From: Parcubacteria group bacterium Athens0714_16
GTDB lineage: Bacteria; Patescibacteriota; Minisyncoccia; Phycocordibacterales; 21-14-all-36-13
Assembly: GCA_007376805.1 (NCBI GenBank)
Contig: VMGX01000005.1
Location: 1-34,052, forward strand
DNA: 34,052 bases
Reading direction: 5' to 3'
Shown: piece after piece, positions 21,709 to 26,962 of the stretch
Position numbering within the stretch: position 1 is the first letter of the stretch
Layout of the letters: each line of letters starts with the position of its first letter
Position numbers and translations under genes: made by a program
The notes under the pieces: generated by a model
The model's database searches: none
The model's input: only the letters and a program-made list of their open reading frames with translations
What the model was told of the DNA's origin: nothing

Positions 21709-21736
21709 ATGATAACAAAAAACCGTTTATAGTCAA
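21709..21736 (-). promoter_or_regulatory. putative tuf promoter overlapping the RT stop codon
   Basis: TTGACT (21736-21731), 16 nt, TATCAT (21714-21709) on minus strand. Confidence 0.6.
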
Positions 21737-22740
21737 GAAGCTTTTAGCGTCTGCCCCAATTTGTAGGCATCACCATGAGAAAGCATTCCTAAATATGATT
21801 GCCTCATTTCTTCTTTTGAATTTTCCCTTAATTTTCTTACCATTCTTTTCTTTGTTGAAGTTCGTAACACTCGATGGTTTGAAAAATGAACCCAGCCCAA
21901 GAAATCTACACCAGAAAAAATGGTTTTAATAAAAACTTTGTTTGGATGTAAATTCAATTTTAAATTGTTTTCCAAAAAAATTTTTATTTTTTCTAAAATA
22001 TCTTCTAAAAATTTTTTATCCTGCGACAAAACAACAAAATCATCAGCATATCTTATATAATATTTTATTTTCAATTCGTGTTTTACAAACTGGTCAAATT
22101 CATTCATATAAATATTTACCAAAAGTTGCGAAGTTAAATTACCCAAAGGAAGTCCTTTTTCGATATCAGCCATGTCTGATATCGAACTTGAAGTATAAAA
22201 ACTATCTATTATATTTTCTAAAAGCCAGAGAATATTTTTATCTTGAATATGTTTCTTTAGAATTTCTTTCAAAATACTATGGTCTATATTTGCAAAAAAC
22301 TTTTTAACATCACATTTTAAAACCCAACAAGTTTTTGTATCATTTTTACTTACTTTTTTTATAAAACTCTTAAATCTATATATTGCTTTATGTGTTCCTT
22401 TTCCAACACGACAAGAATACGAATCATAAATAAATTTCTTATCAAAATATGGATATAGCATTCTATAAATTGTGTGATGTAACAATCTATCTCTTACTTC
22501 GGCTTTATGTATATCTCTGGGTTTGGGGTCATCTATCTTAAATGCTTCATAACTACCATGCTTATATGTTTTATGTAAAAGTTCGTTATGAAGTTTAATA
22601 ATATTAGTCATTAAGTTTCTTTCAAAACCTAAAACATCTTTTCGTGATTTTTTATCTTTCAAAAACTCCTTCCACGCAAGAAGAAGATTTTCAATGGAAA
22701 TGATATATTGGTATGTATGAATAAGTTGAACATGAGACAT
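21733..22740 (-). CDS. DGR-type reverse transcriptase
   Basis: RT motifs KCDVKKFFANIDH, GLPLGNLTSQLLVNIYMNEFD (SQ in motif 4), YIRYADDFVVLS; adjacent TR/VR pairs. Confidence 0.95.
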   Translation of the reverse strand: MSHVQLIHTYQYIISIENLLLAWKEFLKDKKSRKDVLGFERNLMTNIIKLHNELLHKTYKHGSYEAFKIDDPKPRDIHKAEVRDRLLHHTIYRMLYPYFDKKFIYDSYSCRVGKGTHKAIYRFKSFIKKVSKNDTKTCWVLKCDVKKFFANIDHSILKEILKKHIQDKNILWLLENIIDSFYTSSSISDMADIEKGLPLGNLTSQLLVNIYMNEFDQFVKHELKIKYYIRYADDFVVLSQDKKFLEDILEKIKIFLENNLKLNLHPNKVFIKTIFSGVDFLGWVHFSNHRVLRTSTKKRMVRKLRENSKEEMRQSYLGMLSHGDAYKLGQTLKAS

Positions 22741-22776
22741 ACTAATAATTCTACCCCCCCCCTACTTTTGCCACTA

Positions 22777-23121
22777 ATGGCAAAAGTAAAAAGTTGTTAT
22801 TTAATTTGGATTACTTTTTATCAAATCTTACCAAAGCCCCATAAATATTCTTTGGGACAAAAAATAGATAATATTTTTATTGAGATTATTGAAGCAATTT
22901 CTATTGCCACTTTTTTATCTCGTGAAGAAAAACATCCATGGGTTCGGTTAGCGATACGAAAAGTGGATACTCTAAAAATACTTTTGATGGTTTTGTGGGA
23001 AACAAAATCATTGGATAATAAAAAATATATTGTTCTGTCTTTACAAATAGACGAAATAGGCAGAATGTTAGGCGGATGGAATGGACAAATTATAAAACAA
23101 AACTCTCCCACTAAAAAGTAA
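22777..23121 (+). CDS. avd: Avd-like accessory protein (four-helix bundle, DGR accessory variability determinant); upstream ATG at 22708 also possible
   Basis: ITFYQILPKPHKYSLGQKIDNIFIEIIEAISIATF pattern typical of Avd; next to RT and TR. Confidence 0.8.
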   Translation: MAKVKSCYLIWITFYQILPKPHKYSLGQKIDNIFIEIIEAISIATFLSREEKHPWVRLAIRKVDTLKILLMVLWETKSLDNKKYIVLSLQIDEIGRMLGGWNGQIIKQNSPTKK

Positions 23122-23137
23122 GAGAGAAATGAAGAGA

Positions 23138-23264
23138 TTTGCGAGAACCGCGGACGGGTTGTTGACATCAAAATCATTGTCAAGCCAGTTGTAATTCCAG
23201 TTCCACTTGCCACCATTCCAGTAGAGATACAGGACGTAGCGATTACCATTGGAGTTCCGTAGAA
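23138..23264 (-). repeat. DGR template repeat (TR)
   Basis: 127 bp aligned without gaps to VR1 and VR2; minus-strand reading encodes RNSNGNRYVLYLYWNGGKWNWNYNWLDNDFDVNNPSAVLAN, rich in AAC/AAT codons. Confidence 0.95.
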
Positions 23265-23507
23265 ATATATAGAATGTCATCAGCCCCACCACCTCTTGAA
23301 TATTCTTAAGGTTGTATCTTATTTGTATCTTTTGTGATAGTAATCACCCAACACTCTATACCAAGTATCTTCATTTTTTGAAGTTTCTGCATACATCACT
23401 CTATTTGAAACTGTAGTTGCAAATACTCTCAATGTATGGATACTGGTTTCGGTAGCAGAAAACCGTAATTTTCTACATATTCACCTACTGCCATATTTAA
23501 TTTAGCA

Positions 23508-23543
23508 CAAAAAAAAACCTCGTCCCGATAAATCGGAACGAGG
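23508..23543 (-). terminator. terminator/hairpin downstream of VR1 gene
   Basis: minus strand CCTCGTTCCGATTTATCGGGACGAGG followed by T-run; same stem at 26112-26137. Confidence 0.85.
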
Positions 23544-23596
23544 ATAAGAACAAAAAATAAAGGATCAAAAAGTTTAAAGAAAAAAAGTCCTAAGTA

Positions 23597-24241
23597 CTAA
23601 CTTGCGAGAACCGCGGACGGGTAGCTGACATCAAAATCATTGTCAAGCCAGTAGAAATCCCAGTGCCACTTGCCACCATACCAGTAGAGATACAGGACGC
23701 AGCGATTACCATAGGAGAACCGTAGAATTGTTCCATCAAAGAAAATAAAAGTTGTGTTTCCATTTGTTTTCTTTTTCCATTCTTCGGGAATAAAGTTTTG
23801 ATTTTCCCAAAGTGTTTGGAAAATTTTTGCATCCAAACGAATAACATTTTTTTCTTTTAGGCACTTGAGTTTGTCTACGCCGTTGATGGTTTTTTCATTT
23901 TTTTCTAAAGTTGTTTCAAAAACAACTTTAGTTAAATCAATTTCTGTGAGAGCAAGTGATTTTTCATCTTGCTCTTCTATTGACCATCCTGCACCAATGA
24001 ATTTTGCAGGGTCAAATGGAATAGAGCGGTCAATTTGGATTATTTTCGATCCAGAGACAATAACTTTTCCGCCACTGTTTATAAAAGTGACTAAATTTTT
24101 TAGAACAGTCTCTTCGCTTGAAAGCGAATTAATGCACGACTGGATTTTTTCTTTGTCGATAGAAGAGATTATTTCGTCGCTTCCCTTTACAAGAATTTTT
24201 CCAATAAATTCACGAAACTGACCATTAGTGGCTTTTTCCAT
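23597..24241 (-). CDS. DGR target protein 1 (variable C-terminus, probable C-type-lectin-like fold)
   Basis: C-terminus TILRFSYGNRCVLYLYWYGGKWHWDFYWLDNDFDVSYPSAVLAS encoded by VR1; about 150-aa C-terminal region near-identical to target 2. Confidence 0.93.
   Translation of the reverse strand: MEKATNGQFREFIGKILVKGSDEIISSIDKEKIQSCINSLSSEETVLKNLVTFINSGGKVIVSGSKIIQIDRSIPFDPAKFIGAGWSIEEQDEKSLALTEIDLTKVVFETTLEKNEKTINGVDKLKCLKEKNVIRLDAKIFQTLWENQNFIPEEWKKKTNGNTTFIFFDGTILRFSYGNRCVLYLYWYGGKWHWDFYWLDNDFDVSYPSAVLAS
23601..23727 (-). repeat. DGR variable repeat VR1
   Basis: 12 differences from TR, all at TR adenines on coding strand. Confidence 0.95.
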
Positions 24242-24321
24242 GACTTTCTCCTTATTTTAAAGAACATTTGAGCCGATTTTTCTACATTTTGTAGAAAGGG
24301 GCGGTTTCTAACCTTTGTTAT

Positions 24322-24350
24322 ATTATATACCCACTCGAACAAAATGTCAA
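24322..24350 (-). promoter_or_regulatory. sigma70 promoter of DGR target 1
   Basis: TTGACA (24350-24345), 17 nt, TATAAT (24327-24322) on minus strand. Confidence 0.85.
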
Positions 24351-24410
24351 GAGTTTGTAAAAAAGACCCCAAATAAGCCCTTTAATAAAAGGTATTATTT
24401 CTATTAAACA

Positions 24411-24446
24411 AACCACCGTGCTTTCATATATGAAAGCACGGTGGTT
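24411..24446 (-). terminator. palindromic terminator
   Basis: aaccaccgtgctttcatatatgaaagcacggtggtt. Confidence 0.8.
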
Positions 24447-24470
24447 ATTTTTTACTTTTATTTACTAAGA

Positions 24471-25160
24471 TTACTCTTTCTTCCCTATTTCTTTCTTTAT
24501 ACTTTCAAGATATTTCGCAGCTGCTTCTTGTCCTCCAAGTCCAAATGCCAATCCAAATGCAAGAGACAAAGCAACAACAATTCCGGTAAATAATGTTTGA
24601 ATGAATGTTACTGCAACACCAAGTTCAAACAATGCTGCCAATGCGGCAAAAATCCAGATTGTCCATTTTGTTAATGCTCCCAAAAACTTTGAAGATCTAA
24701 CATTTGCTGCTTTTATTCCTCCGATAACAACATTTTGCATTGCATCAGCTATAACAACACCAACAAGAAGTATAAGAACGGCAACAATTACTCTAGGCAA
24801 GAATAACAACACTACGTCTTGCAAAAAGATATTTACTTGATCAAGACCAAGAATATCTAAAGATGCAACAAGAAATGCTATCACCACAAACCATTTTATA
24901 AGACCTCCAACAAAAGCACCTGAATCAAGATTAAATCCTGTGCGATTAATTGGTGCTTCAAAACCAGCGTTTCTCAATGCATTATCTATCTTCAACGACT
25001 TAAAAATTTGGCTAACTGCTTTTCCTAAAACAGAACCAACCAACCATCCTAGAAGGAAGATTATGATTGCGATTATAAGACTTGGAATGAAGCCAATGGC
25101 ACCAACCCACAAGTCCTGAAATGATTTAGTCAAAACATTTCCCCATGTATTTAGTATCAT
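24471..25160 (-). CDS. membrane protein, mechanosensitive-channel-like conserved TM helix (CmpX/MscS-related)
   Basis: repeated TM segments, IIAIIIFLLGWLVGSVLGKAV, LAFGLAFGLGGQEAAAKYLE. Confidence 0.75.
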   Translation of the reverse strand: MILNTWGNVLTKSFQDLWVGAIGFIPSLIIAIIIFLLGWLVGSVLGKAVSQIFKSLKIDNALRNAGFEAPINRTGFNLDSGAFVGGLIKWFVVIAFLVASLDILGLDQVNIFLQDVVLLFLPRVIVAVLILLVGVVIADAMQNVVIGGIKAANVRSSKFLGALTKWTIWIFAALAALFELGVAVTFIQTLFTGIVVALSLAFGLAFGLGGQEAAAKYLESIKKEIGKKE

Positions 25161-25349
25161 ATTTCTTTTCTTTACTAATTAGCCTAAGCTAATTTGTTAT
25201 TAAAAATTCTAATAAAATTAATAATGTTGACCTGATTATTTAAACAACCTTTAAACAAGGTCTCTATAAATAATAACATTTTAGGAATATCACGGGTTGG
25301 TTCGTGTGGATAACCCAACCCCACCTAAAAGAAAGGGATGAAAAGGGGA

Positions 25350-25423
25350 TGAAAAATGCCAATAGGGGCATTTTTTAAAAAAAATTAATCATGGATGAAA
25401 AATGCCCATAGGGGCATTTTTCA
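25350..25423. repeat. tandem duplicated hairpin aaaaatgcc(a/c)ataggggcattttt
   Basis: two copies of gatgaaaaatgccNataggggcattttt about 50 bp apart. Confidence 0.7.
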
Positions 25424-25424
25424 T

Positions 25425-26054
25425 TTAGATGATGTTCGTTTTCTTTAATATTTTTCTATGTGGATAATCGAGAACATCTCTGATTAATTTATCATGTATA
25501 TCCAATCTGTAAGAAAAATCTTCCATATCAAAAGCTGCGTACGATAATTCTTTCCCTACCTGTGATTCTATGTCTTGAATAGCATTCTGTAATAATGTTT
25601 TATTTATTTTGTCTCCAACAACAAGAATATCAACCCTACTTTCTTCTGTTTTGTTAAAAAATACTCCGGAAAGGACAACCAATTTTATGTTGCCTGTCTT
25701 TTTTATTTTTTCAATTATTTGTTTATCGCCCAAAAGATCATTATTTAAAAGTAAATTTTGTAATGCATTTAAATATGGAAAATCTTTGTCCAAACACCAT
25801 CCGTTTGTTTTCTTTTTTTTGTTTTTTTGTTTTTTTGCTTTCTTGCTTTTTTGTTCTATTTCTTTAAAAAATATTTTTTTCTTTATCATCCCCGCACTTT
25901 CAATTTGTTTAATTATTTTACCAGCGACAAATTGCGAAACCTTGGATTTTTTTGAAACATCACTTTTGTTGTATGAATTTTCGGGATTAAATAGGAAAAG
26001 ACGCATTATTTTAACCCGATTTATTCCGTCAAATAGTTTTGATAAACTTTCCAT
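25425..26054 (-). CDS. winged-helix-like transcriptional regulator/nucleotidyltransferase-like protein
   Basis: N-terminal INRVKIMRLFLFNPENSYNKSDVSKKSKVS HTH-like; C-terminal SGVFFNKTEESRVDILVVGD. Confidence 0.55.
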   Translation of the reverse strand: MESLSKLFDGINRVKIMRLFLFNPENSYNKSDVSKKSKVSQFVAGKIIKQIESAGMIKKKIFFKEIEQKSKKAKKQKNKKKKTNGWCLDKDFPYLNALQNLLLNNDLLGDKQIIEKIKKTGNIKLVVLSGVFFNKTEESRVDILVVGDKINKTLLQNAIQDIESQVGKELSYAAFDMEDFSYRLDIHDKLIRDVLDYPHRKILKKTNII

Positions 26055-26104
26055 ATAAAGTCATTCTACCACTATTTTAAAAACCCGCCACCGATAAACA
26101 AAAT

Positions 26105-26137
26105 AAAAAAACCTCGTCCCGATAAATCGGAACGAGG
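26105..26137 (-). terminator. terminator/hairpin downstream of VR2 gene
   Basis: identical stem to VR1 terminator. Confidence 0.85.
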
Positions 26138-26192
26138 ATAAGAACAAAAAAAACAAAGGTTCAAAAAGTTAAAAGAAGAAAAATCCCAAGTT

Positions 26193-26774
26193 CTAACTTG
26201 CGAGAACCGCGGACGGGAAGTTGACATCAAAATCACCGCCAAGCCAGTAGAAGAACCAGTACCACTCGCCACCAAGCCAGCAGAGACACAGGACGCAGCG
26301 ACGACCAAGGGAGAACCGCAGAATTGTTCCATCAAAGAAAATAAAAGTTGTGTTTCCATTTGTTTTCTTTTTCCATTCTTCGGGAATCAAGTTTTGATTT
26401 TCCCAAAGTGTTTGGAAAATTTTTGCATCCAAACGGGTAACATTTTTTTCTTTTAGGCGATTGATTTTATCTTCGCCTTTGATGGTTTTTTCTTTTTTTT
26501 CTAAAGTTGTTTCAAAAACAACTTTAGTTAAATCAACTTCTGTGAGAGCAAGTGATTTTTCATCTTGCTCTTCTATTGACCATCCTGCACCAATGAATTT
26601 TGCAGGGTCAAAGGGTTGAGAGCGGTCAATTTGGATTATTTTTTGTCCAGAAACAATTAATTCATCTCTCAAAAATTTTCTGGCGGACTCCTCTCCGCCG
26701 AGTTTTTTAACAATGGCGTTCATTTCGCCCATTGTTAGATTTTTTGAAGCAAATTTGCTTTCAGCATTTTCCAT
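26193..26774 (-). CDS. DGR target protein 2 (variable C-terminus)
   Basis: C-terminus TILRFSLGRRCVLCLCWLGGEWYWFFYWLGGDFDVNFPSAVLAS encoded by VR2. Confidence 0.93.
   Translation of the reverse strand: MENAESKFASKNLTMGEMNAIVKKLGGEESARKFLRDELIVSGQKIIQIDRSQPFDPAKFIGAGWSIEEQDEKSLALTEVDLTKVVFETTLEKKEKTIKGEDKINRLKEKNVTRLDAKIFQTLWENQNLIPEEWKKKTNGNTTFIFFDGTILRFSLGRRCVLCLCWLGGEWYWFFYWLGGDFDVNFPSAVLAS
26197..26323 (-). repeat. DGR variable repeat VR2
   Basis: 25 differences from TR, 24 at TR adenines on coding strand. Confidence 0.95.
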
Positions 26775-26840
26775 TTGAAACCTCCAACTAATTTGTTGTT
26801 TTAACCTCTCATCCGAGGTAGGAGCTTAGCTTTTATTTTC

Positions 26841-26889
26841 AGCCACAGCTAAAAAATTACAAATGAAATTACAATTTTTTAGCTGTGGC
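26841..26889 (-). promoter_or_regulatory. long 5'UTR hairpin of DGR target 2
   Basis: gccacagctaaaaaatt...aattttttagctgtggc. Confidence 0.7.
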
Positions 26890-26933
26890 CACTCGCAAGT
26901 TATGTAAACGAGCTCTTTGAAAATTCTATATAT

Positions 26934-26962
26934 ATGATAGCATACTATGGTTTATTTGTCAA
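26934..26962 (-). promoter_or_regulatory. sigma70 promoter of DGR target 2
   Basis: TTGACA (26962-26957), 17 nt, TATCAT (26939-26934) on minus strand. Confidence 0.8.

Follow-up and report, generated by a model that had tools for sequence, protein, structure and literature searches.

An antisense, probably phase-variable avd gene and a folded RNA domain 5' of the template in a diversity-generating retroelement of Patescibacteria

Anatomy of the retroelement

Contig VMGX01000005.1 of Parcubacteria group bacterium Athens0714_16, of which positions 1 to 34,052 were analysed (hereafter the window, 34,052 nucleotides in length), carries a complete diversity-generating retroelement (DGR), consisting of a reverse transcriptase (RT), the accessory protein Avd, a single template repeat (TR) and two genes that bear a variable repeat (VR). 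From the perspective of its regulation, the central feature of this element, which is of the type found in the Candidate Phyla Radiation (CPR), is an avd gene read antisense to RT and TR, whose 5' coding region crosses a run of nine C residues. Judging from the comparison of such junctions among relatives, Avd is probably, with odds of about three in four, switched on and off through slipped-strand mispairing at this repeat. The assembly that holds the window comprises 632 kb in 19 contigs and is 89% complete, and its closest named relatives belong to Candidatus Nomurabacteria / Paceibacterota. The core features are the following:

21733 to 22740, minus strand: DGR reverse transcriptase, 335 aa, identified by family and PDB matches
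22717 to 23121, plus strand: avd, 134 aa, antisense to TR and RT, with alternative ATGs at 22732 and 22777
22754 to 22762: C9 homopolymer (G9 on the minus strand), inside the 5' coding region of avd and between the divergent avd and RT starts
23103 to 23126, minus strand: hairpin resembling a terminator, located on the 3' side of TR and overlapping the stop of avd, where the TR RNA is proposed to end
23139 to 23264, minus strand: TR
23139 to 23158, minus strand: 3' end of TR, CCCGTCCGCGGTTCTCGCAA, 20 nt, resembling an initiation of mutagenic homing (IMH) sequence
23265 to 23494, minus strand: conserved structured RNA domain 5' of TR, about 230 nt, with seven consensus helices
23597 to 24241, minus strand: target gene 1, 214 aa, containing VR1
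23602 to 23727, minus strand: VR1
26193 to 26774, minus strand: target gene 2, 193 aa, containing VR2
26198 to 26323, minus strand: VR2

The RT matches RVT_1 (1.3e-25) and the PHROG reverse transcriptase family (5e-113), and contains the motifs LPLGNLTSQ and YADD. Its best match in the PDB is 8ub7 (1.5e-37), which we take to be the RT of the Bordetella phage BPP-1 DGR (bRT); this closest solved relative and the LPLGNLTSQ motif mark it as an RT of the DGR type. The product of avd is assigned to the Avd accessory proteins by matches to Pfam bAvd (1.4e-10, exceeding the gathering score), NCBIfam DivGenRetAVD (7.5e-16, under the curated cut-off of that family) and the PHROG family 'Avd protein of DGR' (2.2e-14).

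Over the 126 positions of the repeat, TR and VR1 differ at 11, all 11 of them at a template A, and 23 of the 24 mismatches between TR and VR2 likewise fall on A. Expressed as rates, mismatches affect 11/32 A against 0/94 non-A positions in VR1 (Fisher p 6e-8), and 23/32 against 1/94 in VR2 (Fisher p 7e-17), while the IMH-like 3' end is the same in TR, VR1 and VR2. The families of RT and Avd and these A-directed mismatches bear out the initial annotation, made from the sequence alone, in its recognition of a DGR, and the mapping of both VRs against the single TR agrees with its statement that one template serves two targets. That annotation had overlooked that avd is antisense, that a C9 run stands where avd and RT meet, and that a structured RNA lies on the 5' side of TR. 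No further VR and no other copy of TR was found across the 632-kb assembly, at its completeness of 89%. Homology and the restriction of mismatches to A suggest that the element is capable of retrohoming.

The avd/RT junction

The junction was compared in over a hundred relatives in all, among which 97 CPR-type loci have a detected Avd and can be analysed at this position; a second, phylum-wide sample comprises 46 loci, one of them repeating a locus of the first. The avd gene is antisense to RT and TR and lies between them in 97/97 loci, and is antisense in 46/46 loci of the second sample. The order is target gene with VR, about 340 nt, TR, 10-20 nt, reversed avd and RT. Same-strand avd genes, read in the direction of RT, were found only outside the CPR-type clade, in distant viral contigs. 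Antisense avd is kept in a divergent CPR subgroup (L196-L215, 46-51% RT identity). It is also present in four CPR-type DGRs on contigs classed as viral in IMG/VR (L139, L140, L141 and L143, the second of which carries two VRs); these contigs may come from phages of CPR hosts or have been misclassified.

The avd and RT starts are divergent and overlapping, with the first 24 nt of avd lying within the RT gene, and the repeat is located at this junction inside the avd frame. Simple repeats occupy the site in 86/97 loci, against an expectation of 0.036 per 150 nt. They are mostly runs of G8-G13 on the RT strand, the remainder being (GA)n, (CTGA)8, (TTGG)10 and one weak TTAA; the phylum sample, with a repeat in 22/25 non-redundant loci, adds (GT)n and (TTGA)n, and at least six kinds of repeat unit are represented at junctions. 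Runs of G or C of at least 8 nt number 72 at junctions (expectation 0.05), whereas the flanking DNA, 1.175 Mb in all, has 4. The longest repeat of each junction has a unit of 1, 2 or 4 nt in 113/113 cases and never a multiple of three, whereas 16/73 background repeats, in a set that left out A/T runs, have units that are multiples of three (p 1e-7). Within one well-supported branch, C9 (L110), (CCAA)10 (L029) and (TCAG)8 (L046), as read on the avd strand, stand at the same spot.

This exchange of units bears on a first alternative, according to which these are ordinary DGRs in which translation of Avd begins beyond the tract and the repeat acts as a sequence element, for instance as a spacer of the RT promoter or by forming a structure in the nucleic acid. 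Such an element would suit the TAnnnT motif that follows the G run within 12 nt in 32/74 loci, as well as the ATG, GTG or TTG found between the tract and the Avd core in 53/87. Against it, the tract is swapped for (GA)n, (GT)n, (CTGA)n, (TTGG)n or (TTGA)n, which share no common sequence and never have a 3-nt unit; Avd coding reaches the tract, 34/87 loci have no usual start after it, and an open ATG before it is kept in all loci. The alternative is thus improbable.

The reading frames around the tract provide the second line of evidence. Conserved Avd coding (LLPVLxxVKxxYxLW) extends right up to the tract, and 76/87 loci have no ATG between the tract and the Avd core; possible start codons after the tract are GTG or TTG in 42 loci and ATG in 11, the window included (ATG 22777). 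Before the tract, within the RT coding sequence, at least one of the three phases offers an ATG whose frame stays open as far as the tract in 87/87 loci, where 200 dinucleotide shuffles gave 45 on average and 55 at most, and in 27/27 loci of the second sample. The actual tract length joins the frame of this upstream ATG to avd in 29/87 and 6/27 loci, respectively, and 20 off-frame loci lack any ATG, GTG or TTG between tract and core. In the window, avd is in the ON frame in the assembly: with nine C it is open from ATG 22717, and it would be closed at 7, 8, 10 or 11 C. A single close pair, L137 and L126, which is not one species, differs both in length and in state: the two are 99% identical beside the tract, and the former has (TC)6, in frame, where the latter has (TC)8, off-frame, a difference of two TC units.

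The spread of tract lengths over all three phases also argues against programmed slippage of the RNA polymerase or the ribosome, which would yield a fixed in-frame fraction of Avd at any DNA length and would tune the gene without genetic switching. Long homopolymers can in general provoke such slippage; tracts of 10-40 nt with di- or tetranucleotide units, however, are poor slippage sites for polymerases and ribosomes and are classic DNA contingency repeats, and this mechanism appears highly improbable. Decay of the DGRs, with avd turning into a pseudogene and the off-frame cases being broken genes, would account for the two thirds of loci that are off-frame relative to the upstream ATG. It can nevertheless hardly be credited, as off-frame loci keep an intact, conserved Avd core, only 2/87 have a stop in the first 30 codons past the tract, TR/VR pairs are still A-biased, and the repeat is retained at one site across the phylum.

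Repeats longer and commoner than chance at a fixed place, units of 1, 2 and 4 nt that shift the frame, and frames open on both sides are the properties by which contingency loci are recognised, and at the level of sequence the pattern at the junction is the signature of phase variation. Several observations weigh against a switch. ATG 22777, located 3' of C9, could still start avd in the window, and an in-frame fraction of one third is also expected if translation begins after the tract. The ATG upstream of the tract is a His codon of RT, so that its conservation is perhaps in part a protein constraint. The compared set is without two genomes of the same species, and variation in tract length within a population was not seen; consensus assemblies may, besides, miscount homopolymers. 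The repeat is present in just 5/20 loci of the divergent CPR subgroup (46-51% RT identity), so that the switch is not universal in CPR DGRs. On the RT tree, 24 changes between ON and OFF were counted against 24.4 after shuffling, which fits fast switching or, equally, an irrelevant frame, and is not used as support.

Some further features surround the junction. The sequence immediately beside C9 on the avd side (22763-22788) is a perfect inverted repeat, TACTTTTGCCA-CTAA-TGGCAAAAGTA, that might affect slippage, and similar palindromes lie beside the tract in some relatives, such as L091 and L040. Three other sites with at least eight G exist in the genome of the window; two are ordinary glycine coding, in genes for a PHP-domain protein and an acyltransferase, and the third (G9, G000 C19:2431-2439, L169) lies beside an open reading frame (ORF), outside any obvious gene. 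On the other flank of the junction, a candidate promoter element of avd precedes its first ATG:

22701 to 22709, plus strand: candidate extended -10 of avd, TGATATATT, 7 nt before ATG 22717 and inside RT codons

This region encodes the YxxIIS motif of RT (window about 22695-22712), whose first Ile is written ATC in 68/97 loci, compared with 24% of Ile codons elsewhere in RT genes. The choice of ATC yields TGATATCAT on the avd strand, shortly 5' of the avd ATG, and an antisense avd promoter inside the RT gene is possible.

The template RNA and the proposed cycle

The RNA domain 5' of TR has seven helices, one of 12 bp adjoining TR, with 48 consensus pairs, 43 of which show compensatory changes; 94% of cells are paired, against 73% after shuffling and 39-50% when the partner is slid. 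A covariance model of its TR-proximal half (R1), trained on 32 loci including the window, where it matches 23262-23382, recovers 52/52 held-out CPR loci and 0/17 viral loci in which Avd is absent or on the RT strand. Applied to the phylum sample, the model matches 25/26 of the nearer loci and, more weakly, 11/20 of the distant ones. Rfam gave no match in the DGR region. A small ORF between target 1 and TR was considered and rejected, the indels and compensatory changes being those of a conserved RNA and not of a protein. By analogy with known systems, the domain may be the part on which RT and Avd dock. An orphan template-target pair was found in G026 (C7:358973-359945), where a target gene, TR and the 5' RNA domain are present and the genome, 100% complete, has no match to a DGR RT.

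On the opposite side of TR, the terminator-like hairpin is kept in 77/81 loci, and because it follows TR, the TR RNA is probably a transcript of its own that ends before avd. The conserved C-terminus of Avd, KQNSP, is encoded opposite this terminator (window 23103-23126), so that protein and terminator constrain each other. A structured RNA 3' of TR like that of BPP-1 was also considered for this stretch and rejected, as it is antisense avd with 3-nt-periodic conservation; the terminator alone remains.

The proposed cycle builds on what the sequences show: the layout of the element, mismatches concentrated at A, and an antisense avd, a junction repeat and an RNA fold that are all conserved. 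TR would be transcribed as a self-contained RNA, made up of the structured 5' domain, TR itself and the terminator hairpin, which RT and Avd would copy with errors at A, and the resulting cDNA would overwrite the VR of either target gene. Reading of avd would start within the RT gene and proceed against it, through a coding sequence that crosses the slippery repeat, here C9. Gain or loss of repeat units in living cells would shift the frame of avd and abolish Avd function when off-frame, thereby turning Avd and retrohoming on and off at random among cells, and both targets would be diversified together while the switch is on. Since retrohoming of BPP-1 requires Avd (PMC12875486), off-frame cells would leave their targets undiversified.

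Such a switch, if true, would explain how very small genomes can retain a mutator whose targets are not continually damaged, and mixtures of tract lengths should then show in existing metagenomic reads. The 5' RNA domain, in turn, provides a covariance model with which CPR DGRs can be detected even when their RT is not on the contig; it also adds a second RNA architecture to comparisons of template recognition and priming by DGR RTs.

Target genes, genomic setting and known systems

The expression signals of the two target genes are:

24322 to 24350, minus strand: promoter of target 1, TTGACA-17-TATAAT, 12/12 consensus positions
26934 to 26962, minus strand: promoter of target 2, TTGACA-17-TATCAT, 11/12 consensus positions
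23518 to 23543, minus strand: terminator of target 1, a hairpin shared unchanged with target 2
26112 to 26137, minus strand: terminator of target 2, the same hairpin as for target 1

The hairpin after each VR has an 11-bp stem and a TTTA loop, stands about 58 nt away and is followed by a T run, and thus reads as a terminator. Promoter-like matches are not in excess across the region (20, compared with a shuffle mean of 22.6), and only the near-perfect target promoters stand out; with the identical hairpins, they uphold the sigma70 promoter and terminator proposed for each target in the initial annotation. Outside the VR, the C-terminal parts of the two targets are near-identical, while their N-terminal modules differ, residues 5-43 of target 2 showing a 61-65% match to other CPR proteins; by their sequences, the two genes are the outcome of a recent C-terminal duplication with module exchange. 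The target proteins, whose C-terminal domain is expected to adopt a C-type lectin fold, have no Pfam match, and a PDB profile search gave chance matches only. In three relatives (L092, L143 and L044) the target genes are inverted relative to TR, with the VR on the opposite strand.

Downstream of RT lies tuf, and the genes for L7/L12 and L10 are upstream of target 2. This ribosomal setting had been singled out as worthy of description, and a conserved tuf/rplJL context was therefore considered. It was rejected: among the non-redundant loci compared, a single relative has tuf and S10 next to the DGR, five further ones have tuf near it and none has rplJL beside it, and the setting of the window DGR is incidental. 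A gene for an MscS-like protein and one for a DNA-binding-like protein sit between the two targets and are not counted here among the parts of the system.

Neither the use of one template for two targets nor the occurrence of DGRs in CPR bacteria is new. CPR DGRs form DGR clade 2 of Roux et al. 2021 (PMC8144416), as the initial annotation had rightly anticipated for the class, and the window resembles this clade in its patescibacterial, cellular host and in its small targets without recognisable domains. The two-target layout is less noteworthy than that annotation had held, as 235/271 multi-VR DGRs reach several genes (PMC6642488). Multi-target DGRs such as those of Stenotrophomonas (PMC6642488) and Treponema, where one or few TRs serve several VR genes, show no essential difference from that of the window, whose targets share duplicated C-terminal parts and differ in their N-terminal modules.

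Compared with the DGR of Bordetella phage BPP-1 (mtd/avd/TR/brt), the window has in common the RT, Avd, A-specific changes between TR and VR and an invariant, GC-rich 3' end of the VR. The catalytic motif of RT is YADD in the window and YMDD in bRT, and the IMH of BPP-1 consists of GC only, unlike the IMH-like end of the window. The avd gene of BPP-1 shares the strand of TR and lies ahead of it (PMC12875486), whereas that of the window is antisense; moreover, the structured Sp RNA that recruits RT-Avd in BPP-1 lies 3' of TR (PMC12875486), whereas the window has its conserved fold 5' of TR and only a terminator on the 3' side, where the RT strand carries no structured spacer. The hairpin after the VR also departs from that of phage DGRs, which has a stem of 7-10 bp and a GRNA loop at a distance of 4-34 bp (PMC3240598); the phage-type hairpin, absent here, is a trait of phage DGRs and not of all DGRs. 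With an inverted and probably phase-variable avd, a folded RNA domain 5' of TR and hypermutation that would be stochastically on in some cells, CPR DGRs likely form a structurally distinct class. In the open-licence full text searched, nothing links DGRs to phase variation, to an antisense avd or to a 5' RNA domain.

The contingency loci of Neisseria, Campylobacter and Helicobacter, with their poly-G/C tracts and short tandem repeats, are alike in having a hypermutable repeat early in the coding region, a frame-shifting unit and mixed states. They differ in that length variation is not yet observed here, and in that the switched gene would serve a hypermutation machine and not encode a surface protein or a methylase.

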